A stretch of DNA of 24,045 bases from a virus. The position numbers and the translations under genes were made by a program. Location: positions 1-24,045 of the IMG/VR virus record IMGVR_UViG_3300050821_005101; one strand, written 5' to 3'. Below the pieces are notes generated by a model that saw only the letters and a list, made by a program, of their open reading frames with translations, was not told the DNA's origin and did no database searches. Shown here piece by piece: positions 3,278 through 24,025 of the stretch (its first letter is position 1; every line of letters starts with the position of its first letter).

Positions 3278-3976
3278 TTAGTTATTGAAATCTTTTAGGA
3301 AGTTTTTTACTGATTCTAAAAACAGTTTTTCTTTGAGTTCTGTGTCTTTAGGAAGAACTGATAAAGCTGTTTCTAATTTCTGATAGCATTCAACGATAAT
3401 ACCATTATCCTGAACGATATATTCTTTATTTTCTAAAATGCCTTGGACGAAGCCTTGTGGGGCGCTTGGGTCTGCTACGATGTCTGAAGCGATCATCTCA
3501 TAGGATGTAACAGTTTTAGAACCATCTGGATTCTCCATTTTAGAGAGAGTTCCTAAGCCTCTGGTAGATGTTCCTAAGATAAGCTTCTTTTCTAAAAACG
3601 TCTGAACAATGCGTCCCATGGCATTTTCAGTGAGGATTTCAGCTTTTCCAATGCAATTTGCGCCTTCCCAGACGAGAGATTGGGTATAATGCGAGACTCT
3701 ATCAAGGTTTATTTCAACGCCATCTGGATGACCAAGCTCACCATAGGAGCGAAAGCCTGCTGGCGACATTCTGTCTTGGATATATTTAGCTACGACAGCT
3801 TCCATCAATTGACGAGGATAGACACGTCCGTTGCGGTTTTTGACGTTTGTTTGGATGAATGGACCACGAATAAAGTATTGTTTGAGGCCTTCATTGTTCT
3901 TTTCAATCAATATTTCTATTGGATTTGCCAACATTTCTGCGGCATCTTTAGATTCTACAATGAGTTTTAGAGCCAT
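3278..3976 (-). CDS. 21: Prohead maturation protease, T4 gp21-like (peptidase family S80)
   Basis: A 232-residue serine protease that cleaves the scaffold and capsid propeptides inside the prohead. Diagnostic features are N-x-N-G-R-V-Y-P (48-54), G-E-L-G-H-P with the catalytic His at 83, and G-T-S-T-R-G with the catalytic Ser at 137; spacing and context match T4 gp21. The length is close to the family norm. A GAGG site precedes the ATG, and a perfect late box lies about 32 nt upstream. It sits in the conserved order gp67-like, gp21, gp22, gp23. Confidence 0.95.
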   Translation of the reverse strand: MALKLIVESKDAAEMLANPIEILIEKNNEGLKQYFIRGPFIQTNVKNRNGRVYPRQLMEAVVAKYIQDRMSPAGFRSYGELGHPDGVEINLDRVSHYTQSLVWEGANCIGKAEILTENAMGRIVQTFLEKKLILGTSTRGLGTLSKMENPDGSKTVTSYEMIASDIVADPSAPQGFVQGILENKEYIVQDNGIIVECYQKLETALSVLPKDTELKEKLFLESVKNFLKDFNN

Positions 3977-4007
3977 ATATAAGAGCCTCTTTCTGCGAGT
4001 TCTCTTA

Positions 4008-4015
4008 TATTTATA
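4008..4015 (-). promoter_or_regulatory. T4-type late promoter (gp21)
   Basis: TATAAATA on the minus strand, followed by T, lies in the short gap between the gp67-like and gp21 genes, 32 nt upstream of the gp21 ATG. Confidence 0.7.
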
Positions 4016-4032
4016 TACTTTTTAGAAAGGCT

Positions 4033-4260
4033 TTATTTTTTATTTTCTTCTGATGCTGGTTTAGGAGGATAGAGTTCCAAAGCCTTAGCAGCGGTTTTCT
4101 CAGCTTCTGTGTTGAGTTTTTCTACAACTGCTGGCTTTTTATTGTTGATGGCTGATTGAAGAGCAGACTTTACAACTTCTGGAAATTGCTTATCTGCTTC
4201 TACATAGTTATCATTGGCTAAGGAAGTTAGAAACTCCTTTATTTTCTCTTTATCTGTCAT
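4033..4260 (-). CDS. 67: Small prohead core protein, gp67-like
   Basis: A 75-residue charged, helical protein. By eye the pattern I-K-x-x-L-x-x-x-x-N-D followed by A-D-K-x-F and A-L-Q-x-x-I resembles the N-terminal half of T4 gp67 (80 residues), and the position between portal and protease genes is that of gp67/gp68. In T4 gp67 is a component of the prohead core. The highly acidic tail of T4 gp67 is missing here; an acidic/lysine tail instead ends the portal protein. A GGAG site sits 6 nt before the ATG. The start overlaps the end of the 53-codon ORF upstream by 11 nt, implying coupled translation. The family assignment is moderate; the structural role is inferred from synteny. Confidence 0.65.
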   Translation of the reverse strand: MTDKEKIKEFLTSLANDNYVEADKQFPEVVKSALQSAINNKKPAVVEKLNTEAEKTAAKALELYPPKPASEENKK

Positions 4261-4411
4261 AGGTATCTCCGTGTTTTATAAACTTGTCTTTATATTTCTT
4301 GATTATAGCCTGTAATTCCTTATCAGAAAGATTGGTAGGGATATTGATGGTAAAAACCTGGCGGTTTGGTTCAGGAAGTCTTTTTAGTTTAGCTGTAAAT
4401 CTATTATTCAT
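4250..4411 (-). CDS. Small unknown protein (53 aa) between portal and gp67-like genes
   Basis: ATG at 4411-4409, TAA at 4252-4250. The start lies 4 nt after the portal stop codon (TGA 4418-4416), and the end overlaps the start of the gp67-like gene by 11 nt, so the frame fills exactly the space between two translationally linked genes. The product is basic, with a predicted helix in the second half (S-D-K-E-L-Q-A-I-I-K-K-Y). I do not recognise the family. There is no clear Shine-Dalgarno site, so initiation probably depends on termination at the portal stop. Its place in the head block suggests an assembly role, but this is inference. Confidence 0.6.
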   Translation of the reverse strand: MNNRFTAKLKRLPEPNRQVFTINIPTNLSDKELQAIIKKYKDKFIKHGDTYDR

Positions 4412-4415
4412 TGGT

Positions 4416-6137
4416 TCATGCGAAACTGTCTAAGTCAGTATCTTCCTTTTTCTCTTTTTTATTATCTTTATCCTTGTTTTCGTCTTTATCTTCGCCTTCT
4501 TTGTCCTTATCTTCTTTATCTTTCTTGCCGCCACCTTTATGGCTTCCACCACCGAGAGATCCTAAGTCGCCAAGGTCAACGTCGTCGTCATCAGTTTCTG
4601 ATTTCTTATTTTTAGCCTTTTCAGCTTTCTCTAGTTTGAGGTAGTCTTCGTTTTCTAAGATTTTTTCTTCTGGGAACTTCAAGAACTCTTTGATGAGCCA
4701 CTTCTTGGAGAACGAAGGAGGATTATCTTCATCACCTTCGGCATAACTAATAAAGCGTTCAAAGTTTTCAGCACGTTGAGTTAGGTTGGCAGTTTCTAAA
4801 AACTCTTCAAAGAGATTGTCATTGTAGATCTTGACTTCAAAATCGTGTTCAGTAATACCATATTCATCAGCATAACCTTTGAGTCTAATATGACTTAGGA
4901 AAATTTCCTTGAACACATCAGAAAAGCGAATGACAAACTTTTGTACCATTTTATTGAAGCGGACTTCTTCACGAGTAATGTCGGATGTATCACCAAGACT
5001 AAAACCAGAATCTTGTTCCATGCGAGACATTGGAACTCTAAGGGCTCTGAAGAGTTTACGTAGGAAGTACGTAACATCTTCAATTTGACCTAAATTTTCT
5101 CCGCCTGGCAACGTCTCAACAGTAGAACCGCGTCCGTCCTGTGAAGGAAGCCAAAAATCTTCTATCATAGCCGTCGTAGTTACAACATTTGAGGCCTCTC
5201 CGGTGCTACTATCATAGGTCTTGCGCTGACGATATTTTTTCATCAATTGTTGCACATATTGTTCTGCTTTAGCTTTAGGAAGTTTTCCTACTTCAATCTT
5301 GAAGACACGACGCTCTGGTGCGCGAATAAGACGATAAATAACTAGAGCATCTTCCAGTTGTTTGAGTTTTCTATAATCCACAGTAGCTACATCAAGATAT
5401 GAACGAACAACTTTTGTCCACCTATCTGGATAATTGAAAATGCCGCTATTGGCGTAACTAATCATTTCGCGGGGCATTATCATAATATTTGTATCTGATT
5501 TATGAATGAACTGATGAATTGTTTCTGATTCAGCTTCTTCCCAAATTGGATATGTATATTCTGGGCGAAGACGCTTGACGCGCAAAATGCCTCTTTCTTT
5601 AGCATTTGTAGGATCTACTACTTTCTCGAAGAAGATTTCTCCATCAACCATAAACTCACTAAACCATTCATTGATTTGAGTCTTGGCGCGCATAACTTCA
5701 TAAATGATGTAATTCCATTCTTTTATTAGATTTCTGGCAATGTTTTCATTTTGAACAAGTCTATCATTTTTTATAACAAGTTCCATAAAATTACCATCAT
5801 CATTGAATGAAATTGCAGAATCTTCTATTTCTCCTAAGGCAAATGATATTTCTGGAAACATAGCCATTCCACGACGAGTGGCTAATATCGCTTTCTTATT
5901 TGGCTCACTTCTATAAACGAATGAATTGAGTTGACCAGATTGCTGTTGAAAATCTCCAGCCGTAACGCTTGTCACGTCTTCCATTTCTGTAGCTGACGGA
6001 ATTTTCTGTCTTCCGTATTTGTCGTCCTGGTGACCCCAAAGATTTACATTTCTTTTATAGTGCTGTTGCTGGGCCGCTTTCGACCACTTGTTTCTTTTTA
6101 CAAATGGTTCTATAATTCTGGATAGGAAGTCGGCCAT
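4416..6137 (-). CDS. 20: Portal vertex protein, T4 gp20-like
   Basis: A 573-residue protein that forms the dodecameric portal at the head-tail vertex, through which DNA is packaged. Family signatures are the N-terminal region with D-V-T-S-V-T-A-G-D-F and R-x-G-M-A-M-F-P-E-I, the central Y-A-N-S-G-I-F and W-T-K-V-V-R-S-Y-L-D blocks, L-P-G-G-E-N-L-G-Q-I-E-D-V-x-Y-F with R-x-L-R-V-P-x-S-R, and the D-I-T-R-E-E block. It is longer than T4 gp20 (524 residues) because of a low-complexity Gly, then Lys/Asp/Glu tail (about residues 505-570). An AAAGGA site precedes the ATG and lies inside the end of the upstream ORF, whose stop is 1 nt away. Confidence 0.96.
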   Translation of the reverse strand: MADFLSRIIEPFVKRNKWSKAAQQQHYKRNVNLWGHQDDKYGRQKIPSATEMEDVTSVTAGDFQQQSGQLNSFVYRSEPNKKAILATRRGMAMFPEISFALGEIEDSAISFNDDGNFMELVIKNDRLVQNENIARNLIKEWNYIIYEVMRAKTQINEWFSEFMVDGEIFFEKVVDPTNAKERGILRVKRLRPEYTYPIWEEAESETIHQFIHKSDTNIMIMPREMISYANSGIFNYPDRWTKVVRSYLDVATVDYRKLKQLEDALVIYRLIRAPERRVFKIEVGKLPKAKAEQYVQQLMKKYRQRKTYDSSTGEASNVVTTTAMIEDFWLPSQDGRGSTVETLPGGENLGQIEDVTYFLRKLFRALRVPMSRMEQDSGFSLGDTSDITREEVRFNKMVQKFVIRFSDVFKEIFLSHIRLKGYADEYGITEHDFEVKIYNDNLFEEFLETANLTQRAENFERFISYAEGDEDNPPSFSKKWLIKEFLKFPEEKILENEDYLKLEKAEKAKNKKSETDDDDVDLGDLGSLGGGSHKGGGKKDKEDKDKEGEDKDENKDKDNKKEKKEDTDLDSFA

Positions 6138-6138
6138 A

Positions 6139-6465
6139 TTATGCCAGTCCTTTGATAAATGATGATAATATTATTTCTATCTCATCAAACTTTGTGTAGG
6201 GTATTCTCAATAAGTTTATACCTTTTGTTTTACAGTAATTAGTTTTTATATTATCTCTAAATCTAATACTTTCTAATGTATCTCTGTGTCCTTTCCATCC
6301 AAAATAATGCTTTTTAGGCTTTTGTTTATAAACTCCATGTACCGGACATGTGATATCTACCATGATATTAGTATCTACATAATTCGTTTGTTCGTAACTA
6401 TAATAGTTATTATGTATTTGGTTAGCCTTTTTTATAAATTCATCAGTTGTCAGCTTTTTTGGCAT
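6139..6465 (-). CDS. Internally shortened homing-endonuclease-like protein (CPVHG module plus C-terminal nuclease end)
   Basis: A 108-residue ORF. The N-terminal half carries one Cys/His module (C40-P-V-H-G44), as in DUF723-type repeats. The C-terminal half (R-D-N-I-K-x-N-Y-C at 70-78, then L-L-R-I-P-Y at 85-90) matches the end of Vsr/phage endonuclease-like domains. In the full-length proteins I know, these parts are separated by more repeats and by the catalytic stretch around an x-x-D-G-x-Q-H motif; here K-K-H-Y-F-G-W appears to join them directly. It is therefore probably a deletion derivative without nuclease activity. It sits between a late promoter and the portal gene, with its stop 1 nt before the portal ATG, so it is co-transcribed with the head genes. 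Confidence 0.7.
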   Translation of the reverse strand: MPKKLTTDEFIKKANQIHNNYYSYEQTNYVDTNIMVDITCPVHGVYKQKPKKHYFGWKGHRDTLESIRFRDNIKTNYCKTKGINLLRIPYTKFDEIEIILSSFIKGLA

Positions 6466-6528
6466 TTCATATTCCTAACCATCCATTATACCATCCATCT
6501 TACTATTTTCTTTCATTTCTCATAATTC

Positions 6529-6538
6529 GTGTTATAAT
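6529..6538 (+). promoter_or_regulatory. Extended -10 promoter for the paralog array
   Basis: TGTTATAAT (6530-6538) is a perfect extended -10 element; only a poor -35 (TTTCAT, 6511-6516) is visible, which extended -10 promoters tolerate. Transcription would begin near 6545, about 20 nt before the ATG at 6567. That argues against the in-frame upstream start codons, one of which overlaps the -10 box. Confidence 0.55.
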
Positions 6539-6548
6539 GCGTCTAACC

Positions 6549-6556
6549 TATTTATA
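6549..6556 (-). promoter_or_regulatory. T4-type late promoter for the portal operon
   Basis: TATAAATA on the minus strand, 84 nt upstream of the 6465 start codon. It can serve the endonuclease-like ORF, portal, 53-aa ORF and gp67-like gene. It lies only 11 nt downstream of a plus-strand -10 box, so divergent transcription initiates over the same stretch. Confidence 0.65.
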
Positions 6557-6566
6557 TTTATTCTCT

Positions 6567-6920
6567 ATGAATCCACCAACCCATCCTCCAGCCGGTAAAA
6601 CTACTGCTCTAATAATATTTGAGTATATCATGGAACATCCTGGGACGATTGACTTAACGCCTATTAGTTCTTATTTAGATGTAGAAGAGGATTCTTATGA
6701 ATTTCTTATAAAGCATATGATCATCAAAGAAACCAATATAGTTTATAAAAAAGTAGAATTACGTTGGGAAGGAGAATTTGGAGATATTGAACAAGATACT
6801 ATGGACATAAGAATGAGTGCGGATGTATGGCCAACATTAGAAGGCATGTGGGCTTATTTTCTTTATAAAAAAGGAATAGCAGTGCCACAAATAGAAGACA
6901 GAATAAAGGCATTTGGATGA
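6567..6920 (+). CDS. Paralog 1 of the LW-FL-KGI family (117 aa, unknown function)
   Basis: The first and longest member of the five-gene array. The open frame extends upstream to 6447, but that stretch contains the promoter and encodes an unlikely hydrophobic peptide, so the ATG at 6567 is preferred; there is no good Shine-Dalgarno site. Shared family features are an N-terminal helix ending in H-P-G (24-26), a middle I-V-Y-K-K strand, A-D-V-W, and M-W-A-Y-F-L-Y-K-K-G-I (residues 93-103). Unlike its siblings it continues 14 residues past KGI. The layout suggests a winged-helix-like fold, but this is inference. The stop overlaps the next ATG as ATGA (6917-6920). Confidence 0.75.
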   Translation: MNPPTHPPAGKTTALIIFEYIMEHPGTIDLTPISSYLDVEEDSYEFLIKHMIIKETNIVYKKVELRWEGEFGDIEQDTMDIRMSADVWPTLEGMWAYFLYKKGIAVPQIEDRIKAFG

Positions 6921-6967
6921 ATGATAAAACCATAACAGAGGTGAAGAAAGGCATTCGACATGAATGA
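6917..6967 (+). pseudogene. Collapsed paralog: 16-codon remnant keeping only the two ends
   Basis: The frame ATG 6917 to TGA 6967 encodes M-N-D-K-T-I-T-E-V-K-K-G-I-R-H-E. The first eight residues match the start of paralog 2 (M-N-D-E-T-I-K-E), and the last six match its end (K-K-G-I-L-H-E). The DNA around its ATG (6917-6934) is near-identical to that around 6960-6977. It is bounded on both sides by the array's junction sequence AAAGGCATT-N3/4-ATGAATGA. The simplest reading is a family member that lost its whole interior by deletion, leaving start and end in frame. It may still be translated as a coupling peptide. Confidence 0.6.
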
Positions 6968-7262
6968 TGAAACCATAAAAGAACACTTGATTGATATTAT
7001 CTGGAATAATCCTGGTATTCATTTACTCATGCCAAGAAGCTGGTCACTAGTCAATATACAGTTCAAAGAATATATTGATACTACAAAATTATTAGATGAA
7101 CTCATTGCAGAAGAAAGAATTATTGCTAAACCAATAGTTAGTGTTACGATACATGGAACTTCTGTAATAAAAACTTTAGTCAATATAGAATTGTTTCCAA
7201 AAATAACTTTGTCTGGATTGTGGAGACATTTTCTTATAAAAAAAGGCATTCTTCATGAATGA
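6960..7262 (+). CDS. Paralog 2 of the LW-FL-KGI family (100 aa)
   Basis: It begins M-N-D-E-T-I-K-E, followed by a helix ending N-N-P-G (16-19), the family's PG turn, a second predicted helix with L-L-D-E-L-I-A-E-E, a beta-rich middle, and the C-terminal G-L-W-R-H-F-L-I-K-K-G-I-L-H-E. The ATG is preceded by AAAGG (6947-6951) at 8 nt, supplied by the KKGI codons of the collapsed copy, and its stop overlaps the next start by 8 nt. No known family is recognised. As a small, variable gene in a tandem array it may act in host takeover or counter-defence, which is speculation. Confidence 0.8.
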   Translation: MNDETIKEHLIDIIWNNPGIHLLMPRSWSLVNIQFKEYIDTTKLLDELIAEERIIAKPIVSVTIHGTSVIKTLVNIELFPKITLSGLWRHFLIKKGILHE

Positions 7263-7542
7263 ATTAGAAAATGATATAATTCATTATATACAAAGCAGTC
7301 CTGATGGAGTCGCCGTCACAAACATATATAATTTCATTCTAAATAAAAGATTTCAGTTTCATTTAGCAAATAACACAATTAGTGCTAATATATCATCAGT
7401 AATTGAAGAAATACGTTATATATTATTAGACCCAAGTGATACCTTTTTGGCGAGTGTTATATATTATAAATCAAAATATTATCCTATAACATGGAAAATC
7501 TTATGGGAAACATTTTTATACAAAAAAGGCATTCTTGTATGA
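7255..7542 (+). CDS. Paralog 3 of the LW-FL-KGI family (95 aa)
   Basis: The shortest intact member. The N-terminal helix ends S-S-P-D-G (14-18), a variant of the family PG turn; the middle is Ile/Asn-rich, and the end is I-L-W-E-T-F-L-Y-K-K-G-I-L-V. The start ATGAATGA has the junction site AAAGGCATT 4 nt before it and overlaps the previous stop by 8 nt. The stop shares ATGA with the next gene (7539-7542). Sequence identity to the other copies is low apart from the C-terminal motif, so the duplication is old or divergence has been fast. Function unknown. Confidence 0.8.
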   Translation: MNELENDIIHYIQSSPDGVAVTNIYNFILNKRFQFHLANNTISANISSVIEEIRYILLDPSDTFLASVIYYKSKYYPITWKILWETFLYKKGILV

Positions 7543-7868
7543 CTAATTTAGAAAATAATCTCGAAACCATAAAAAAACTAAAAGTTGACATCATCTTATT
7601 TCTTTATAGTCATCCAGGAACTTTATTTTTCCATAAAACAGGACGTTCTACTATTATTTTAGATAAATCATTAGAATTGGATGATAATCGTATGCTCATC
7701 ATGGATGTTATGCATCAGTTAAAAACTAATGAATATATTGTCTATAAAAATGAACAGTTATCAGGAACCACCACTAAATATATATCAAATGCTGATGTTT
7801 ATTTGACTAAATCTGCTTTAGCAAGTTTATGGAGATTATTCTTAGAAGATAAAGGTATTGATATATGA
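7539..7868 (+). CDS. Paralog 4 of the LW-FL-KGI family (109 aa)
   Basis: The frame opens at 7491, but the ATG at 7539 overlaps the previous stop as ATGA and has the array's AAAGG site (7525-7529) at the usual distance, so it is preferred. Features: helix L-K-V-D-I-I-L-F-L-Y-S-H-P-G (residues 14-27), a predicted helix around M-D-V-M-H-Q-L-K, a strand Y-I-V-Y-K-N, then N-A-D-V-Y-L-T-K, and the end L-W-R-L-F-L-E-D-K-G-I. It is clearly closest to paralog 5, with the same helix and the same N-A-D-V-Y-L block, so that pair duplicated most recently. Function unknown. Confidence 0.82.
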   Translation: MTNLENNLETIKKLKVDIILFLYSHPGTLFFHKTGRSTIILDKSLELDDNRMLIMDVMHQLKTNEYIVYKNEQLSGTTTKYISNADVYLTKSALASLWRLFLEDKGIDI

Positions 7869-8179
7869 ATGAAATATTGAACGGGGACCTAGTTGAACAA
7901 CTAAAAATTGATATCATTTTATTTCTCTATGACCATCCTGGAATACTTTGGTTTGACAAAAATGATAATATTATAAACGAACAGATAGGAAAAAGTCCAG
8001 AAGCTCAGGAAGCTATAGAACAACTTTATAAAGACTACATAATCGTTCATAAAAACTCTTTTTGTATCAACGGTAACTTAGATACTGCCAATGCGGATGT
8101 CTATCTTGTAAAACCTATATTGCCATATCTCTGGAAATTGTTTCTAGAAAACAAAGGTATCGTACATGAAAGCGTTTAA
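7865..8179 (+). CDS. Paralog 5 of the LW-FL-KGI family (104 aa)
   Basis: The last member of the array. It carries L-K-I-D-I-I-L-F-L-Y-D-H-P-G, nearly identical to paralog 4, then Y-I-I-V-H-K-N, N-A-D-V-Y-L-V-K and L-W-K-L-F-L-E-N-K-G-I-V-H-E-S-V. The start overlaps the previous stop (ATGA, 7865-7868). The end overlaps the gp4-like start by 14 nt, with the K-G-I codons supplying AAAGG (8153-8157) for the gp4-like ATG. The array and the head completion gene therefore form one translationally coupled unit. Function unknown. Confidence 0.82.
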   Translation: MNEILNGDLVEQLKIDIILFLYDHPGILWFDKNDNIINEQIGKSPEAQEAIEQLYKDYIIVHKNSFCINGNLDTANADVYLVKPILPYLWKLFLENKGIVHESV

Positions 8180-8609
8180 GAAAGGCATCTTTACTCCACA
8201 AAATCAAACAAAATATGTAGGGAGAAGACCTTTGATGTATAAAAGTTCGTATGAATATAAGTTCATGAACTTCCTAGATAAAACTGCTGCTGTTACTGAA
8301 TGGTCTTATGAATCAATAGTTATTAGATATGTTCATCCACTGACGGGAAGACCAGCTCGTTATTATCCAGATTTTTTATTCACTTATAAAGATACTTCTG
8401 GAAATACAATCATAGAGATGGTTGAAATAAAGCCTTATAAACAAACCATACCACCAAAAGCTGGCAAAGGTAAAAAGCAGATTTATTTACTACAAGAAGC
8501 TAAAACGTGGGTCGTCAATAAAGCGAAATGGGAAGCGGCCATTCTGTATTGTTCTAATAAAGGCATCAAGTTTAGAATAATGACAGAAAAAGACTTGAAT
8601 ATTAGGTAA
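8166..8609 (+). CDS. 4: Head completion protein, T4 gp4-like (TnsA/restriction-like nuclease fold)
   Basis: A 147-residue protein resembling T4 gp4 (also called gp50/gp65): basic N-terminus with K-G-I-F-T-P-x-N-x-x-K-Y (6-17), then Y-K-S-S-Y-E-Y-K-F (25-33), V-T-E-W-S-Y-E (43-49), Y-Y-P-D-F (66-70) and M-V-E-I-K-P (85-90). E30, D69, E87 and K89 form the E...D...E-x-K arrangement of the TnsA-like endonuclease fold. In T4 the protein acts on filled heads before tail joining. It is a late function placed at the end of the plus-strand array rather than in the minus-strand head block. The end overlaps the RNase H stop by 8 nt. Confidence 0.85.
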   Translation: MKAFKKGIFTPQNQTKYVGRRPLMYKSSYEYKFMNFLDKTAAVTEWSYESIVIRYVHPLTGRPARYYPDFLFTYKDTSGNTIIEMVEIKPYKQTIPPKAGKGKKQIYLLQEAKTWVVNKAKWEAAILYCSNKGIKFRIMTEKDLNIR

Positions 8610-9531
8610 AAAACTCTGGCACGATAACTTCTGGATTATTCGCTTTTGCTTCATTTATTCTCAAGATAATCTTGTCTAATTGGTCCATACGAGACATCAA
8701 GTCTCTGAACTTATTTTTACTAAAATATTGGAATATCTCTTTACCAGTTGGCATCTGATATTCTTTTATAGTTTTCATAAGGAGCTTTACAAATACATCA
8801 GGCGTTTTGTTCAAGTCTATAAGAATCATATTCTTCTTATAGCGTTCTTTATATTCGTCTCCCAGCGTGACATCTTTGCCATCTTGAACATAACTCACCG
8901 TCTTATCCTCAAATAAAGCCTTTATTTCATCTGGATTGTCTACCATCCTGGCTGCGGTCACTTCTCCAACTCTTGGCTTTATAGATGGAATGTTGTCACC
9001 TTTATCACCCATGAGGATTTTCATCTTGAGTTGTCTCACTGGGTCGTCACATTTATTGAACTTATTTTTTATAGGGTCAAACAACTGAATATTGTTATAT
9101 TTGAGAAGTTGTAGATAATCTCCGTCTGATGTAACTATGATTTTCTTTTTATGTTGCCATTCTCGTGCTAAAATACCAGCAATATCATCAGCTTCCAGGT
9201 ATTTGACTTGAAGCACATAAAAAGGAAAATAAGTTTTTACTTCATCTACGAATTCACGAAAGGCAGTAAAAAAGGCATTCCAGTCAATATCTGTCTGTTT
9301 ATCGCGGCTTTCTTTTCTATTTTCTTTATATTCTGGGTGGATTTTTTTACGCCAATTTTCTTTAGAATCAACCATAAGAACCACTTCATCTGCTTCAAAG
9401 CGCGTACAGAGGCTAAAGATAGTATTGAACATGGCGTGTTTGAAGTACGCCCAACCAACTTGTGGAATATCTTTATTTACTGAAAATAAACATCTATAAG
9501 CAACGTGATTGAGGTCAAATAAAACAACCAT
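8602..9531 (-). CDS. rnh: T4-type RNase H, 5'-3' exonuclease of the FEN family
   Basis: A 309-residue enzyme that removes RNA primers and adjacent DNA from lagging-strand fragments. The acidic metal-binding residues are visible: D6 (V-L-F-D-L-N), D55 (V-L-M-V-D), E113/D115/D116 (L-E-A-D-D-I-A-G), D136/D138 (T-S-D-G-D-Y) and D176/D179 in M-G-D-K-G-D-N-I-P, which opens the helix-hairpin-helix region. The length equals that of T4 RNase H (about 305). An AAGGA site precedes the ATG, and a sigma-70-like promoter lies upstream, separating it from the late genes around it. Confidence 0.95.
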   Translation of the reverse strand: MVVLFDLNHVAYRCLFSVNKDIPQVGWAYFKHAMFNTIFSLCTRFEADEVVLMVDSKENWRKKIHPEYKENRKESRDKQTDIDWNAFFTAFREFVDEVKTYFPFYVLQVKYLEADDIAGILAREWQHKKKIIVTSDGDYLQLLKYNNIQLFDPIKNKFNKCDDPVRQLKMKILMGDKGDNIPSIKPRVGEVTAARMVDNPDEIKALFEDKTVSYVQDGKDVTLGDEYKERYKKNMILIDLNKTPDVFVKLLMKTIKEYQMPTGKEIFQYFSKNKFRDLMSRMDQLDKIILRINEAKANNPEVIVPEFFT

Positions 9532-9566
9532 AGATTAGTATCCTTTTATAATTGAACCATCTTACA

Positions 9567-9594
9567 ATTATAGCGAACAATTTTTTAGATACAA
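9567..9594 (-). promoter_or_regulatory. Sigma-70-like promoter for RNase H
   Basis: On the minus strand TTGTAT (9594-9589), a 16-nt spacer and a perfect TATAAT (9572-9567). It lies 36 nt upstream of the RNase H start. Confidence 0.6.
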
Positions 9595-9603
9595 CCTATT
9601 TGT

Positions 9604-10725
9604 TTATTTCTTTTCTACTACTGGCGGTTCTTCTTCATTCAGTGGACGCTTTCTTGTGCCAATTCCAATTGGGGCATCATAATTAGCGACTGCTGAAGTA
9701 GTGGTTCCTGGGCCTGCTGCTGGACCGGAAGCAACTGGACCGCCTTGTCCTCCACTTGCTGCTGAATCTTCAGTCATAGATGGCTCTAGTGGCTTGAGAC
9801 CAGCTTGAGCAAGTTTCTTTGAGAGAATAGAAACTGCTTTATCTACTCCGCCCAATGATTTTATAAAGGTAGCAGAGTGTGGGTCTGATGTCAACCCAAT
9901 AACAGCATGGTCTACATCAATTTCTTTGTCTGGAGAAATAAAGTCATTTTCTCTCGCATAGAGCATAAAGTCTTTGAAGAATTGGTCAAATGATTCATAA
10001 GGAATTGTGGCGCCTTCAATTGGTTCTTCTGACATAGTTTCCATTGAATTGACAGGAGCCCATTCATTCATATCAAGTTCTTTGAGCATTCCAACGAGTT
10101 TTTCCTTGAATAATTTGAGGGCATCTACACGACGCTTTTCATTTTCTGCGTGGCGGTCTTGGACCGTAAAATTAGAGACATCAATACCTATTTTAGGATA
10201 ATTAGGGAAATCTTTGGTTCCATGGGGAACTTCAGTTGAAGTACTTGTTGGTTGTGGGTCGGCAGGAACTACTACTTTTTCTTCTTCAAAGGCTCCTTGA
10301 AGTTCACTTTCACGAACTTTTGGTCTATCTTTGATATCTTTAGGAACTGTAAGTCTTTGAGTTTCTGCTCTTTCTATTTCGCGTTTTTCTCTGGGAGAAA
10401 CGGAAGCTGCTTTTGGAGATGGGTCCACTAAATCGTCTGTCATGTCATACGCATCATCACGCGGCTGTTCTTCTGTAACAGCTAAAACAATCTCATTGTC
10501 CTTTCTTGCGTGTGGAAGCTCTACTGCCGGCTTATCTTGTGGGGGATGGAAGCCTGAAGTATCATCAAGACCTTCTGGCATCTTATCTTCTGGAACTTCC
10601 TCAAAAATGACTTCATTGATAGGATGTTTTTTAGAATAACCAAACCCTGATAGCGTAACTGTCTTTTCGTCCTCTTTTATTACGGAAAAACGTTGTCCTC
10701 TATAATGAGCATATTTGTGGGCCAT
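9604..10725 (-). CDS. Unknown 373-aa protein under a late promoter, Pro/Glu-rich
   Basis: A short folded N-terminal segment (about 1-45: G-Q-R-F-S-V-I-K-E then a T-L-S-G-F-G-Y strand), a long disordered acidic/proline-rich stretch (about 45-180), a probable helical domain (about 185-315, with D-A-L-K-L-F-K-E-K-L-V-G-M-L and F-D-Q-F-F-K-D-F-M), and a Gly/Ala/Ser/Thr-rich tail. No family is recognised. It has a strong AGGAG site and a perfect late box 30 nt upstream, inside the end of the RuvC-like gene. Late expression and this architecture suggest a virion or assembly protein; this is inference. Confidence 0.85.
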   Translation of the reverse strand: MAHKYAHYRGQRFSVIKEDEKTVTLSGFGYSKKHPINEVIFEEVPEDKMPEGLDDTSGFHPPQDKPAVELPHARKDNEIVLAVTEEQPRDDAYDMTDDLVDPSPKAASVSPREKREIERAETQRLTVPKDIKDRPKVRESELQGAFEEEKVVVPADPQPTSTSTEVPHGTKDFPNYPKIGIDVSNFTVQDRHAENEKRRVDALKLFKEKLVGMLKELDMNEWAPVNSMETMSEEPIEGATIPYESFDQFFKDFMLYARENDFISPDKEIDVDHAVIGLTSDPHSATFIKSLGGVDKAVSILSKKLAQAGLKPLEPSMTEDSAASGGQGGPVASGPAAGPGTTTSAVANYDAPIGIGTRKRPLNEEEPPVVEKK

Positions 10726-10743
10726 TTGAGAATCTCCTGATAA

Positions 10744-11280
10744 TTATCCTTCTTTATTTATAATATTTATGATGTTCTTTTTAGTTTCTTCTAAAAAGCC
10801 ATAATAACCAATAGCTATACTATCTGATAACCCATCATGTGGTTTTTTAGACCGTGGTGTTGCTAATAAAGAAACATTTGACCATTTATTTTGGACAAAT
10901 TGTATGGTTTCTTCTTTTTCTCTATGTTCGCCTTTGGGTTTTTTACCCATCAAAGTTTCTTGCCATGTTTTAGGCCCAACCGCTACAATTGGTATTTCTA
11001 ATGCTGCACATATTCCATATATGCCTGATACGCTCCACGCAAAGTTGAACATGCTCACACATCCGTTTTTTGGCATGGCCGACACTTTTTCTATATATAC
11101 AATCTTTGGATTATGTCGTTTGAATAGATTGCTTATAATAGTAAAATCAACCATTTCTTTTTTCTTTTTATTAGATTTTATAACTGTATATGTTGGCATT
11201 ATTATAAGTTCTGTAATATTTTCATCTTCTAAAACAGCTATACCACCATGTTGTCCAGGGTCTATTCCTATTATTTTCAT
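10744..11280 (-). CDS. RuvC-like Holliday junction resolvase
   Basis: A 178-residue RNase H-fold nuclease. Motifs: I-G-I-D-P-G (D7), V-Y-I-E-K-V (E64), A-V-G-P-K-T-W (100-106) and K-P-H-D-G-L-S-D-S-I-A-I-G (H148, D149, D153), giving the RuvC-type D-E-D set. It would cleave four-way or other branched junctions left by recombination-dependent replication so that the DNA can be packaged, the job of endonuclease VII (gp49) in T4. The ATG overlaps the stop of the zinc-ribbon gene (ATGA, 11280-11277), so the two are translated together. No separate promoter is seen. Confidence 0.88.
   Translation of the reverse strand: MKIIGIDPGQHGGIAVLEDENITELIIMPTYTVIKSNKKKKEMVDFTIISNLFKRHNPKIVYIEKVSAMPKNGCVSMFNFAWSVSGIYGICAALEIPIVAVGPKTWQETLMGKKPKGEHREKEETIQFVQNKWSNVSLLATPRSKKPHDGLSDSIAIGYYGFLEETKKNIINIINKEG
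10755..10762 (-). promoter_or_regulatory. T4-type late promoter for the 373-aa protein
   Basis: TATAAATA on the minus strand, 30 nt upstream of the 10725 ATG and within the last codons of the RuvC-like gene. A second, weaker CATAAATA copy lies at 10764-10771. Confidence 0.7.
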
Positions 11281-14017: not shown

Positions 14018-15880
14018 ATGGCAATATATCAGAATGTAACGAGAAATCCAATTAGAGTGATTGTAAAAGGTGCCCGTAAAACTATAAAACCTGGACAATT
14101 TCTCCATGGTTCAGATAATCTATCGGCTATTCCTGGACTTATATTAGTTGAAGAAACTAAAAAAACTATAATTCCTATCGTGTCTTCAACTGCTCAGTCA
14201 ACCTATACATCCCAACAACAAATAAAACCAATGACACAACCAGAAAAAAGAAATAATAACGACCTTGAGAAAGAAATAAACGAAGAACTATCCTATCTTT
14301 ATAAAATGATGGCAATTGGACACAATCCATCTGTTACTATAGCTATTTTGACTAAAAATGCTCTCAAACTTATAACAGACTGTTGTGAATCTATTTTTTC
14401 TCAAGTCAATTACTCAGATGTTGTTCTTATGATTGCTGATACAGGAACCACAGAACAAGCTGTGCGAGATTATTATAATTCACTACCAGCAAAATGTGCT
14501 CAAAAAAACTGGAAATTTCAATTCGTTCAACTTCCTCATTTTCATTATAGTTCTAATTATAATAGAGCTATCGATGCTGTTGTAACTGATTATGTTCTTA
14601 TACAAAATAACGATACAGTTGCTTTATCTGATTATGTTTCTGAAATGATGTATACAGGAGTTTTGAGGCGAGTTGGTTCTACTGGTTGCCGTATGTTATA
14701 TCCAGATAGAGCTTCCATTCAACATGATGGACAAACTATGTTCAATGCTCCTGGTTTGATGTTTGGAAGTCCGAGTCATGTCAATTTGAGACGAAAACTA
14801 TCAGAAATACCAGAAAATGAGTCACATACTGATATTGTTGATGGAAATACGGCTGCTGGTGCTCTTATGAGAGTGTCAGATTATAAAACTATTGGCGGCT
14901 TTGACGAACATTATAAAGACATCTTTCAAGATGTTGATATGATGATAAAAATACCTCATATGCTTCAGAAATATAATTATTGTAATAAAGAAGCTGTTAT
15001 TACTCATATTGACAATGCAAGTCGTTTGGCGAGTGGACACGACCCAAAACGTCATGCTGCTATGTGGGAAGACACCAATCTTATAAAAAATCATATGATA
15101 AATAATAACTGGATGCGAGGCAGAAGACCCAGAGAATATGATTTTAGTGTTATAACATTGGTTAGAAATATAAAAAATTATGAAGAGTTTTGTCATTCTC
15201 TCAAAAAACAATTAGGAACAGAATCTGTAGAAGTTATCGCTATTCCTAATTTTTTCCAGCAATTTACATCTGTATTCAAGGCTCTCAATATAGCGGCTGA
15301 CACGGCTAATGGAAGACATCTTATTTTCTGTCATGAAGATATTATTGTTCCTCCAGATTGGATTCTAAAAATAAAGAAAAATATAAATGAATTAGAGCAA
15401 CAACATGTCAATTGGGGTGTTCTTGGTCCCGCAGGTGTATTTCTCAATAACAATAACGCTGCTTTCTTTTTATATGATGTCAATGGAAATCCTCTTTATA
15501 ATTGTGTAAAAAATATAATCCATGATAAAACAAGATATGAAATAGAATCATTAGATGAATTATGTCTTATAACTAAAAAATCTAATAAATTGAGGTTTAG
15601 TGATAAACAACTATCTGGATTCCATTTTTATGGAGTAAACCTTTGTTTAGATGCTCGTCTCAAAGGTTATAAAAACTTTGCTATAGATGCTTATTGTTAT
15701 CATAAATCAGATGGTTATAAAAATATTTCAACTCCTGAGAAATATAAAGAGTTTGAGAATTATGCTAAACTTTTTAACATATATGCTCAATCTCGTGGAA
15801 TTACTCAATGGCGGTCTACAACAGCTATGGGTAATAACGGAGTTATTACTTTATTTACAAAATCTCCAGAAGAAAAATAG
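14018..15880 (+). CDS. Two-domain GT-A glycosyltransferase with N-terminal beta domain
   Basis: A 620-residue protein. Residues 1-45 look like a small beta domain (N-V-T-R-N-P-I-R-V-I-V and T-I-K-P-G-Q), followed by a Thr/Gln-rich linker (50-80). Residues 105-330 form a family-2-like glycosyltransferase: S-V-T-I-A-I-L-T-K-N (105-114), the metal motif N-N-D (197-199), G-N-T-A-A-G-A (277-283), G-G-F-D-E (293-297) and Q-D-V-D (304-307). Residues 375-600 repeat the fold more loosely, with F-S-V-I-T-L-V-R-N and H-E-D (439-441). It would transfer sugars from nucleotide-sugar donors to an unknown acceptor. It is the third gene of the uvsY-uvsW operon, has only a weak ribosome-binding site, and ends before a gene-poor stretch. 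Confidence 0.85.
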   Translation: MAIYQNVTRNPIRVIVKGARKTIKPGQFLHGSDNLSAIPGLILVEETKKTIIPIVSSTAQSTYTSQQQIKPMTQPEKRNNNDLEKEINEELSYLYKMMAIGHNPSVTIAILTKNALKLITDCCESIFSQVNYSDVVLMIADTGTTEQAVRDYYNSLPAKCAQKNWKFQFVQLPHFHYSSNYNRAIDAVVTDYVLIQNNDTVALSDYVSEMMYTGVLRRVGSTGCRMLYPDRASIQHDGQTMFNAPGLMFGSPSHVNLRRKLSEIPENESHTDIVDGNTAAGALMRVSDYKTIGGFDEHYKDIFQDVDMMIKIPHMLQKYNYCNKEAVITHIDNASRLASGHDPKRHAAMWEDTNLIKNHMINNNWMRGRRPREYDFSVITLVRNIKNYEEFCHSLKKQLGTESVEVIAIPNFFQQFTSVFKALNIAADTANGRHLIFCHEDIIVPPDWILKIKKNINELEQQHVNWGVLGPAGVFLNNNNAAFFLYDVNGNPLYNCVKNIIHDKTRYEIESLDELCLITKKSNKLRFSDKQLSGFHFYGVNLCLDARLKGYKNFAIDAYCYHKSDGYKNISTPEKYKEFENYAKLFNIYAQSRGITQWRSTTAMGNNGVITLFTKSPEEK

Positions 15881-18082: not shown

Positions 18083-19057
18083 ATGACTGTCGCCATAGAA
18101 CCCATTCTGTCAAAAAGTTTAGACCGATTTGTATTATTTCCAATCAAATACCAAGACTTATGGGATATGTATAAGAAAGCAGAAGCATCATTTTGGACGG
18201 CAGAAGAAATAGATTTATCATCAGACCTCAAAGACTGGGAAAAGCTTACAAAAGACGAAAAACATTTTATTTCTCATGTTTTAGCTTTCTTCGCTGCTTC
18301 AGATGGTATAGTCAATGAAAACCTGGCTCAAAGATTTTATAATGAGGTTCAGCTTCCAGAAGCTAGGGCATTCTATTCAGTCCAAATGTGTATAGAAACC
18401 ATTCATTCAGAGATGTATAGTCTATTGATTGACACCTATATTAGAAAACCAGAAGAGAAAACATTCTTATTGAATGGTATAAACACCATTCCATCAGTAA
18501 AAAAGAAGGCTGAATGGGCTATCAAATGGATAGAGGGAACATCCTCATTTGCCGAGAGACTCGTAGCATTCGCCGCCGTAGAAGGAATCTTTTTTAGTTC
18601 AAGCTTTTGTAGTTTATACTGGCTAAAAAAGCGTGGATTGATGCAAGGGCTTACTACGTCTAACGCACTTATTGCAAAAGACGAATCCGCCCACTGCGAG
18701 TTTGCTTGTTTGCTTTATAACCAACTTGATAATAAACTAAGTGGAGAACGAATAAAAGAAATTATTTGTTCAGCCTGTGAAATAGAAATAGAGTTTGCCA
18801 CTGAATCACTTCCTGTATCACTTATTGGAATGAATAAAGAACTAATGGGGCAGTATATAAAGTTTATTACTGACCGCCTTTTCACTTCCTTTGGCTATAA
18901 TAAGTGCTATAATGTGTCTAACCCATTCGATTTTATGGACCTAATATCCCTTCAAGGAAAGACCAACTTCTTTGAGCAAAAAGTATCAGACTATAGAAAG
19001 GCCGGCGTTGGCTATACAGCAGAGCAAAATAGTATAGTCTTTGATGCTGAAATTTAA
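18083..19057 (+). CDS. nrdB: Class Ia ribonucleotide reductase small subunit, eukaryote/Bacteroidetes-like
   Basis: A 324-residue R2 protein that holds the di-iron centre and tyrosyl radical needed for dNTP synthesis. All ligands and the radical Tyr are present: D74 ([10 protein letters not shown]), E105 and H108 (I-E-T-I-H-S-E), Tyr112, E167 (A-V-E-G-I-F-F), E201 and H204 (K-D-E-S-A-H-C); W38 lies in A-S-F-W-T-A-E-E. The blocks [14 protein letters not shown] and [10 protein letters not shown] are those of animal R2 rather than of E. coli or T4 NrdB. The C-terminus (N-S-I-V-F-D-A-E-I) is the R1-binding tail. There is no intron, unlike T4 nrdB. GGAAG site upstream; nrdA follows 56 nt later. 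Confidence 0.97.
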
Positions 19058-22176: not shown

Positions 22177-22377
22177 ATGACTCCATTATATTTGGTAGGA
22201 TGGATAGACGAAAACACAAAAGCATATAAGTTTCTATGTAGGGATGCACCAGAAACAGAAAATCCTCAAGAAGCAACAAGTTATGGCGAACAAAGAGCAA
22301 GAGAAGTTGCTCAACTATTTGGTTATAAAGTTATAGAAGTAACTGTTCATTATAGTTATGATTATAGAATTATATAG
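22177..22377 (+). CDS. Unknown small protein (66 aa)
   Basis: A 66-residue protein with alternating strands and one helix: L-Y-L-V-G-W-I-D, then A-Y-K-F-L, a helix R-A-R-E-V-A-Q-L-F-G, and a final strand V-I-E-V-T-V. It is probably one compact alpha/beta domain. AGGAG lies in the end of the upstream gene, and the start is 1 nt after that gene's stop. Its 3' end overlaps the convergent metallopeptidase gene by 8 nt. Function unknown. Confidence 0.75.
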   Translation: MTPLYLVGWIDENTKAYKFLCRDAPETENPQEATSYGEQRAREVAQLFGYKVIEVTVHYSYDYRII

Positions 22378-22846
22378 AGTAAATAACATCCATCTTCAAG
22401 TCTCTGACAAAAGTCTTGAGTAATTCTCCAGCTTTGGCATTTGCTTCGTTTTCTATAGGTCCACCAGCGTCTTGGACAGTTTCACCCACTTTGAACTTGC
22501 CAGTTTCTCTTTGCATCGTGTGAACCAATTCATGAGCTACTGTTCTCAAAATATCGGCTAATAAACGACCTTGAGCTAAAACATATATCTTGTCTTCTTG
22601 TGGATTATAAGCTCCAGTTGTCATACTTCCTATTTTTTCAGCCACAAAGTTTATTTTAGGCATCTTTTTTATGCCTAGTATTTTAGAAACATAATCAACA
22701 AATTGCTTTATTATGTTCTTTTTATCGTCATTGAAGCCCAATGACATAGAATAGGAAATAGGACCAGGGTCCATACTGACTGCTTCGAATGTAATAGATT
22801 CTTGTAGTATGCCTCTAATAGAACCTTTAAGGTCTTCTGGGAGCAT
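22370..22846 (-). CDS. Small zinc metallopeptidase with HELVH motif
   Basis: A 158-residue protein using the ATG at 22846. The zinc site H105-E-L-V-H109 sits in a helix (V-A-H-E-L-V-H-T-M-Q), with a candidate third ligand in I-E-N-E-A-N-A-K-A (131-139), the gluzincin arrangement. A Y-N-P-Q-E-D-K-I-Y-V strand precedes the active helix. A GTG at 22888 in the same frame would add 14 residues but overlap the upstream gene by 32 nt; neither start has a good Shine-Dalgarno site, so the start is uncertain. It is likely co-transcribed with the 64-aa gene from a late promoter, which points to a role in virion maturation or release. The target is unknown. Confidence 0.8.
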   Translation of the reverse strand: MLPEDLKGSIRGILQESITFEAVSMDPGPISYSMSLGFNDDKKNIIKQFVDYVSKILGIKKMPKINFVAEKIGSMTTGAYNPQEDKIYVLAQGRLLADILRTVAHELVHTMQRETGKFKVGETVQDAGGPIENEANAKAGELLKTFVRDLKMDVIYSI

Positions 22847-22856
22847 TGACGTTCTA

Positions 22857-23051
22857 TTATTTGCCCGTAGGACAGCCGTGTGGACCACAAGGACCGATAT
22901 CTGTGCCTTTGTTGTGTCTACGGCTCTGGCGTTCTTCTAAGTGCTTCTTATTGATATCTACAGCCTTATCAACGTTCATTTTTTTAACGTCTTCATGGCT
23001 CTTGAGAAGCTTTTTGATGCCAGTTAGCTTACGATGGTCGTGGTTTTTCAT
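22857..23051 (-). CDS. Small basic Cys/His-containing protein (64 aa)
   Basis: It begins M-K-N-H-D-H-R-K, is rich in Lys and His, and ends G-P-C-G-P-H-G-C-P-T-G-K, where C-x-x-x-x-C with His could bind a metal. A GAGG site lies 10 nt upstream of the ATG, and a perfect late box lies 22 nt upstream, so it is a genuine late gene. The metallopeptidase gene follows 10 nt after its stop if the ATG at 22846 is used. No family recognised. Confidence 0.75.
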   Translation of the reverse strand: MKNHDHRKLTGIKKLLKSHEDVKKMNVDKAVDINKKHLEERQSRRHNKGTDIGPCGPHGCPTGK

Positions 23052-23119: not shown

Positions 23120-24025
23120 ATGCCCACTAAAGAGCTTATGTTTCATGGAACATCATCTGTCAACTGCAAAAGCATCTTGAAAAACGGATTGGTGTGTCAT
23201 ACTGACCATAAAATCTATAAAACAATAGGGAAGACAAGTCTAGAACAACCAAGTCTCAAATCTCTTGATGGAGTCTATTTTTCTTCATCGTTTTTTATGC
23301 CAAGTTTGGCTGGAGCTATGGGGGCATATAAACTAGGAGGACATCCTTTATATGTTATATCTGAAATAGACATGAACGAAGCTGTTCCAGATGAGGACCA
23401 GATTCGTCCGCATTTAGAATCATCATTTTCAAGTTGTATAGCGCATTTTCTAAAAGTTTCTCTTGAGAACGTATTTTCTTGTAAGGAACGTTGGGCATCT
23501 TATTTTGGATACATTGATTCATCCTCATCACATAAAGTTCAAGAATCACACTTTCTTTTCAATGAACTTTATAAAAAAATTGATATAGAAGATATGTGTG
23601 ATGGCGCCTATAAAGAATATATTTTTAGCAGCGTAAGCGAACGAATAAAGGCGCACTTATTTTCAGAAAATAAAAATAATTATATTGCCAAATATACATC
23701 ACATCATAAGGAGTTCAGAACTCCACCCATTCCATTATCAACACATGAGGCAGAAGAATCATATTTGTCAATGTTAGATAGTTTATGTAAAAAATGTCAA
23801 TGTTTTGTTTATAAAAATAATAAAGATAAAAGAATACGAGTCCCAAAAACAGTAGGATTTTTAGGAAGTAGTAAAATTATTAGTATCTATTCATATAAAG
23901 ATAATAAACTTATTCTTCGCTATGGTAAAGAAATAGACCTGACTCATACTGATTTCATTGATAGACATGCTAAACCTAAACTTGAAGCACCTGCTCACAC
24001 GATTGTATCTCATCAATCTTCGTGA
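23120..24025 (+). CDS. Probable ADP-ribosyltransferase-fold protein (301 aa)
   Basis: The N-terminal domain has the order typical of the H-Y-[E/Q] ADP-ribosyltransferase fold: L-M-F-H-G-T (H9) followed by S-I-L-K-N-G-L (18-24), then L-D-G-V-Y-F-S-S (49-56, Tyr53), an Ala-rich helix and P-L-Y-V-I-S-E-I (76-83). The third catalytic residue is not obvious. T4 encodes ADP-ribosyltransferases (Alt, ModA, ModB) that modify host RNA polymerase and other proteins, but this shows no similarity to them that I can see. The C-terminal half (about 110-300) is unassigned. A weak promoter and a distant GGGAAG precede the ATG. It is divergent from the late metallopeptidase pair. Confidence 0.6.
   Translation: MPTKELMFHGTSSVNCKSILKNGLVCHTDHKIYKTIGKTSLEQPSLKSLDGVYFSSSFFMPSLAGAMGAYKLGGHPLYVISEIDMNEAVPDEDQIRPHLESSFSSCIAHFLKVSLENVFSCKERWASYFGYIDSSSSHKVQESHFLFNELYKKIDIEDMCDGAYKEYIFSSVSERIKAHLFSENKNNYIAKYTSHHKEFRTPPIPLSTHEAEESYLSMLDSLCKKCQCFVYKNNKDKRIRVPKTVGFLGSSKIISIYSYKDNKLILRYGKEIDLTHTDFIDRHAKPKLEAPAHTIVSHQSS

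Follow-up and report, generated by a model that had tools for sequence, protein, structure and literature searches.

The stretch of DNA analysed here, referred to as the window, comprises 24,045 bases of a virus and was taken from the IMG/VR record IMGVR_UViG_3300050821_005101. Between the genes for the gp20 portal and a T4 gp4-type protein it carries an array of five head-to-tail ORFs on the plus strand (p1 to p5, positions 6567-8179), which lies upstream of the gp4-type gene. The initial annotation had recognised five consecutive small ORFs of 95-117 residues at this place, and the ORF coordinates agree. It had also described the array as fused to the gp4-like gene by overlapping starts, of which only a part can be retained. 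The genes do overlap from p2 through gp4, but p1 and p2 are separated by a 39-nt gap and none of the genes are fused. The features of the region are listed below, L004 being a contig from a sister phage.

4416-6137, minus strand: gp20 portal gene (PF07230, E 2e-96), to the left of the insertion site
6142-6465, minus strand: homing-endonuclease-like ORF of 108 aa between gp20 and the array (PHROG 559, E 8e-18)
6567-6920, plus strand: p1, 117 aa
6960-7262, plus strand: p2, 100 aa
7255-7542, plus strand: p3, 95 aa, the most diverged paralog
7539-7868, plus strand: p4, 109 aa, with a differing allele in L004
7865-8179, plus strand: p5, 104 aa, identical in L004
8166-8609, plus strand: gp4-like head-completion gene with a TnsA-N-like nuclease fold (PF08722, E 2.8e-20)

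The gp20 gene belongs to a minus-strand block of T4-like structural genes in which Pfam also identifies the major capsid protein gp23 (PF07068), while gp22 and gp21 were assigned from position and resemblance. The gp4-like gene additionally matches PHROG 218 (head closure, E 1.5e-45). The homing-endonuclease-like ORF covers only positions 367-413 of the 607 in the PHROG 559 profile and is missing from L004, where it has been deleted; it is probably a remnant. A megablast search against phage records found no DNA shared with the window, and the closest relatives of the major capsid protein are cyanophages, about 35-36% identical at best. NrdB (18083-19057, plus strand) is 60-67% identical to proteins of Tenacibaculum phages and huge uncultured phages and is possibly of separate origin from the capsid, whose closest relatives are the cyanophages at about 35%. 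A search of the window for tRNAs and Rfam RNAs returned none. Elsewhere in the window, a 620-aa protein (14018-15880, plus strand) has two glycosyltransferase-2-type domains, a 172-aa ORF (22370-22888, minus strand) without a PHROG or Pfam match contains HELVHTMQRE, a zinc-metalloprotease-like HExxH motif, and a 301-aa ORF (23120-24025, plus strand) has MFHGTSS near its start and a sub-threshold match to PARP/ADP-ribosyltransferases (PF00644, E 0.0027).

The genes of the array are joined in a characteristic manner. The overlaps amount to 8 nt for p2/p3, 4 nt each for p3/p4 and p4/p5, and 14 nt for p5/gp4. The 3' ends of p2 to p5, which encode KKGI or a close variant, also place AAAGGYAT 4-5 nt ahead of the following ATG, and each gene thereby ends in the ribosome site from which its successor is translated. 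The C-terminal motif is nevertheless not a mere by-product of this ribosome site, since p1 keeps KKGI with no start codon directly after it; the motif is therefore conserved as protein too. A second KKGI, at the start of gp4 (MKAFKKGIF), was rejected as an array motif, since the gp4 of array-free phages conserves it as well. The joint between p1 and p2 is doubled, as follows.

6905-6985, plus strand: duplicated joint, with the ribosome-binding site and p2 start (AAAGGCATT..ATGAATGATRAAACCATAA) present twice, 42-43 nt apart

This repeat (D3; 23 nt, 91%) appears to have been left when a cassette joint underwent duplication or deletion.

Each of the five proteins has an N-terminal stretch that closes with PG, or with PDG in p3, and the C-terminal motif [LM]W..FL..KGI. 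The shared motifs of the initial annotation are thus found in all five, with the correction that p1 has MW in place of LW. Its choice of p4 and p5 as the closest paralogs holds (40% identity, E 1e-19), and p2-p5 (E 3e-7), p2-p4 (E 2e-6) and p1-p2 (E 4e-5) are further recognisable pairs. Whether a single profile unites the five was addressed by removing each paralog together with its L004 counterpart, searching with a profile of the rest, and taking 2000 shuffles as the control. The held-out proteins scored 23.9 (p1), 31.4 (p2), 17.9 (p3), 46.4 (p4) and 57.8 bits (p5), against 8.6, 13.1, 17.8, 12.9 and 12.2 bits, respectively, for the best of the shuffles. By these scores p1, p2, p4 and p5 clearly form one family, as had been proposed for all five, while the membership of p3 is borderline by sequence (17.9 bits against 17.8). 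The C-terminal motif of p3 is 65% identical to that of p2 over 17 aa, and motif, position and joint also place it, as a borderline member, in the family.

Outside the array, relatives are scarce. Profile searches with the family in Pfam, PHROGs, NCBIfam and PADLOC (the last consisting of models of defence proteins) gave no match, PDB sequences gave none either (best E 0.12), and the earlier statement that no known family is recognisable has held up. Nothing credible came from tblastn searches of phage records with p1 to p5, and two family profiles found no relatives in genome contigs. Viral contigs were searched with profiles, with single proteins and with the DNA pattern of the joint, and the family occurred only in L003 and L004. 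The pattern itself (W..F[FL]..KGI followed by ATGA) occurred in seven stretches of the viral contigs, of which the five beyond L003 and L004 encode unrelated proteins. L003 is 99.98% identical to the window and is therefore not independent.

The site of the array can be followed in more distant relatives. In four related contig lineages (L021/L024, L023, L025 and L005) gp20 and gp4 are likewise divergent neighbours, and none has array genes between them; the portals of L021/L024 and L023 are 61-63% identical to that of the window. The gap is an empty site in L021/L024 and L023, with a short intergenic stretch only in L021 and L023, and in L005 it holds a 215-aa ORF on the minus strand. An unrelated orphan ORF of 182 aa was observed at the gp20/gp4 site of L025 (4451-4999, plus strand). 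With the gap empty or differently filled in relatives, the site can be regarded as a variable insertion spot, and on sequence comparison the array is a lineage-specific insertion between gp20 and gp4. The comparison of copy number that the initial annotation had called for gave five copies in both the window and L004 and none in the four lineages, and tandem small paralogs were seen in no other locus compared. As to the marks of an accordion locus, repeats lie at the joints and p4 is exchanged at the joints, with the copy number being five in the window and in L004.

The exchange of p4 emerged from the comparison with L004. Over positions 3572-10763 the window and L004 are mostly 92-100% identical, and p2 and p5 are 98% and 100% identical as proteins; p4 is only 56% identical. 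The p4 cassette is the only one replaced, with about 66% DNA identity inside DNA that is 98-100% identical.

7535-7836, plus strand: exchanged cassette, approximate extent, with 66-89% identity inside and 98-100% on either side

On the left, divergence starts directly after the terminal AAAAAAGGCATTC of p3; on the right, the joint falls among the codons for the LW..FLEDKGIDI of the p4 C-terminus. The breakpoints of the exchange thus lie in the junctions of C-terminal motif and ribosome site, and neighbours and reading frames are left intact. Synonymous divergence from L004 is about 1.0 for p4, 0.02-0.07 for p1 to p3 and zero for p5. A dS of about 1.0 is beyond what selection on the protein gives and indicates that p4 was replaced by recombination with a diverged allele; fast evolution in place was rejected, with synonymous sites saturated and the flanking genes nearly identical. 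The L004 allele is itself an intact, correctly coupled gene, and all five ORFs are intact with coupled starts in both phages. Even a misassembly of one contig would have brought together two real p4 alleles. Further dips in identity to L004 (72-82%) were noted at 4300-4400, 9500-9600 and 10600-10700, between genes or at their edges, and may represent more mosaic joints.

In p1 to p3, divergence takes a different form. Measured against this one sister phage, dN/dS is about 0.5 for p1 to p3, still below 1, and 0-0.18 for gp21, orf75, gp20, gp4 and rnh. Pooled counts are 17.5 nonsynonymous to 8.5 synonymous changes in p1 to p3 and 12 to 44 in the comparison genes (Fisher P 5e-5). Among the amino-acid changes of p1 to p3, 10 of 14 lie 2-13 residues past the PG motif, compared with two of the seven synonymous changes. 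A permutation test in which the best 15-residue window is sought puts this clustering at P 1.5e-4, on small numbers and a single phage pair; a simpler count in p1 and p3 gives the same picture with a window picked after looking. Together with the replacement of the p4 cassette, the raised dN/dS bears out the earlier description of the paralogs as fast-diverging. What the sister comparison adds is an exchangeable cassette and a variable post-PG segment, both of which are testable.

The nature of the fold bears on what such proteins might do. An AlphaFold2 model of p4, run with nine family sequences, is of low confidence (pTM 0.62, mean pLDDT 66) and has helices at 2-24 and 51-63, strands at 67-70 and 86-89 and a helix at 93-104, with the middle helix not resolved and much of the post-PG segment below a pLDDT of 50. 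Its Foldseek neighbours in the PDB are mostly winged helices (SSV1 F-93, MarR, PadR, RTP; best E 0.03), and a Foldseek search against viral models found nothing firm. The model of p3 with its one ortholog is uninformative (pLDDT 44). Curated HTH and wHTH models gave no match above cut-off, the best being HTH_46 on p4 (12.8 bits against 29.3, E 0.12). The winged-helix layout suggested by the initial annotation is thus weakly favoured by the layout and neighbours of the p4 model, although no neighbour falls below E 0.03 and p3 says nothing. With a pI of 4.6-6.5 and a net charge of -1 to -10, the five proteins range from neutral to acidic, which favours protein targets over DNA; of the two kinds of binding proposed earlier, that to protein fits the charge better.

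It is from this fold that p1 to p5 could be read as DNA-binding winged-helix regulators of phage or host promoters, comparable to MarR/PadR, SSV1 F-93 or T7 Gp5.7, with the paralogs reading different operators. Although most of the best Foldseek neighbours of p4 are DNA binders of the winged-helix type and the HTH_46 match, weak as it is, points the same way, we consider this reading unlikely. No Foldseek match falls below E 0.03, the charge of the proteins does not favour it, most of the differences between strains lie in the post-PG segment and not in the predicted recognition helix, and five tandem exchangeable copies are rarely needed by a regulator.

The time at which the array is expressed bears on a second alternative. 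The T4 late promoter core is TATAAATA, and in five T4-like phages late promoters occur only before orthologs of late genes, while novel ORFs accompany early genes (PMC1524935). Two sites lie ahead of p1.

6533-6538, plus strand: putative sigma-70-type extended -10, TGT-TATAAT (TCGTGTTATAATGCG), identical in L004
6549-6556, minus strand: T4-type late promoter -10, TATAAATA, of the divergent gp20 operon

All six TATAAATA sites of the window are on the minus strand and none on the plus strand, and five of the six immediately precede gp22, gp21, the gp20 operon, orf373 and orf129. Their number does not exceed what chance would give (6 sites, 3.3 expected), and it is their placement that matters. 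The extended -10 (TGTTATAATG), a consensus match about 34 nt upstream of p1 that is conserved in L004, is the probable start of the array transcript; in a general consensus scan the array region was not enriched in sigma-70-like sites. A sigma-70-like promoter, combined with the company that novel ORFs keep in T4-like phages (PMC1524935), makes early expression of the array likely. Since the structural gene gp4 shares the array transcript, late or virion roles retain some probability. One such role would be that of accessory head or virion proteins made together with gp4 (decoration, head completion or partners of gp4) that vary as parts of the virion surface do. The position of the array between gp20 and gp4 and its translational coupling to gp4 are what one would expect of such proteins, but related phages have gp20 and gp4 without any such gene between them, and the promoter ahead of the array differs from the late-type ones of gp22, gp21 and gp20. 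We therefore regard a virion role as rather improbable.

Slightly less probable still is that the array is nearly neutral, a duplicated and weakly selected accessory gene drifting and recombining at an AT-rich insertion site. Its AT-rich third positions, the dN/dS of p1 to p3 and the adjoining homing-endonuclease-like remnant would all be compatible with this, but the ORFs and their coupled starts are intact in both phages, the motif is retained across very diverged copies, the changes in p1 to p3 are clustered and not spread, and the replaced p4 allele has a dN/dS of 0.29. Action between phages, to confer immunity to superinfection or to inhibit relatives that co-infect, with one competitor per cassette, is the least probable of the alternatives, for although the cassette swap between sister phages and the lineage-restricted distribution would suit it, no membrane or exclusion features were seen.

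The reading that we tentatively prefer, at somewhat less than an even chance, is that p1 to p5 are early, exchangeable binders which neutralise variable host proteins, most likely components of defence. Tandem duplication within the space that separates the divergent gp20 and gp4 of a T4-like phage would have produced this lineage-specific family of small (95-117 aa) early accessory proteins under a sigma-70-type promoter. The proteins may share a winged-helix-like fold in which the C-terminal helix is the common scaffold or a dimer element and the post-PG segment the contact surface. Each copy would bind and neutralise its own host protein or protein allele, most likely part of a defence system, with duplication and cassette swapping serving to widen or refresh the set of targets. 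Use against host targets or defences is consistent with these data, with the raised dN/dS of p1 to p3 (0.5) still below 1. It is also possible, if somewhat unlikely, that the array as a whole is a diversity-generating locus of exchangeable small binders against host defences. The segment running from the C-terminal helix through the ribosome site to the next start would then be a standard recombination joint, at which whole recognition cassettes could be swapped, gained or lost with reading frame and translational coupling preserved.

Rapid divergence and the lack of resemblance to anything known make phage anti-defence genes difficult to find. Here the comparison of two sister phages points to the small orphan genes under exchange and to the short segment of each protein that is changing. 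Among known small viral winged-helix proteins, SSV1 F-93 (PDB 1TBX) and T7 Gp5.7 (PMC5569994) are alike in size and in the predicted helix-helix-strand-strand-helix layout. However, they have no sequence similarity to p1 to p5 and the fold match is not significant, and p1 to p5 differ from them in being neutral to acidic and in forming a tandem array. The placement of the array is better compared with the hyperplastic regions of T4-like phages, in which variable accessory genes between conserved structural genes are thought to allow adaptation to the host (PMC2984593). Here, too, accessory genes are inserted between conserved structural genes, and the insert between these core genes varies among relatives. 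The cyanophage region, however, lies between g15 and g18 (PMC2984593), while the array occupies the gp20/gp4 gap and consists of five tandem copies of a single family.

As for its tandem arrangement, recombination between short repeats is how T4 and T6 raise the copy number of anti-defence genes, as seen for dmd-tifA (PMC9391042) and in SegB-driven amplification (PMC13096335), the latter driven in T6 by a homing endonuclease (PMC13096335). Tandem copies of small genes arising via short repeats are the common element, and a homing-endonuclease-like ORF likewise lies beside the array; this parallel to T6 is suggestive only. The ORF looks like a remnant and is absent from the sister phage. Moreover, the T4 and T6 copies are recent duplicates under selection, in contrast to the diverged paralogs of the array, of which a single cassette has been exchanged. 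If the preferred reading is true, the tandem array would be a replaceable set of host-targeting proteins and a diverged, lasting counterpart of the gene amplification that T4 and T6 undergo under defence pressure.
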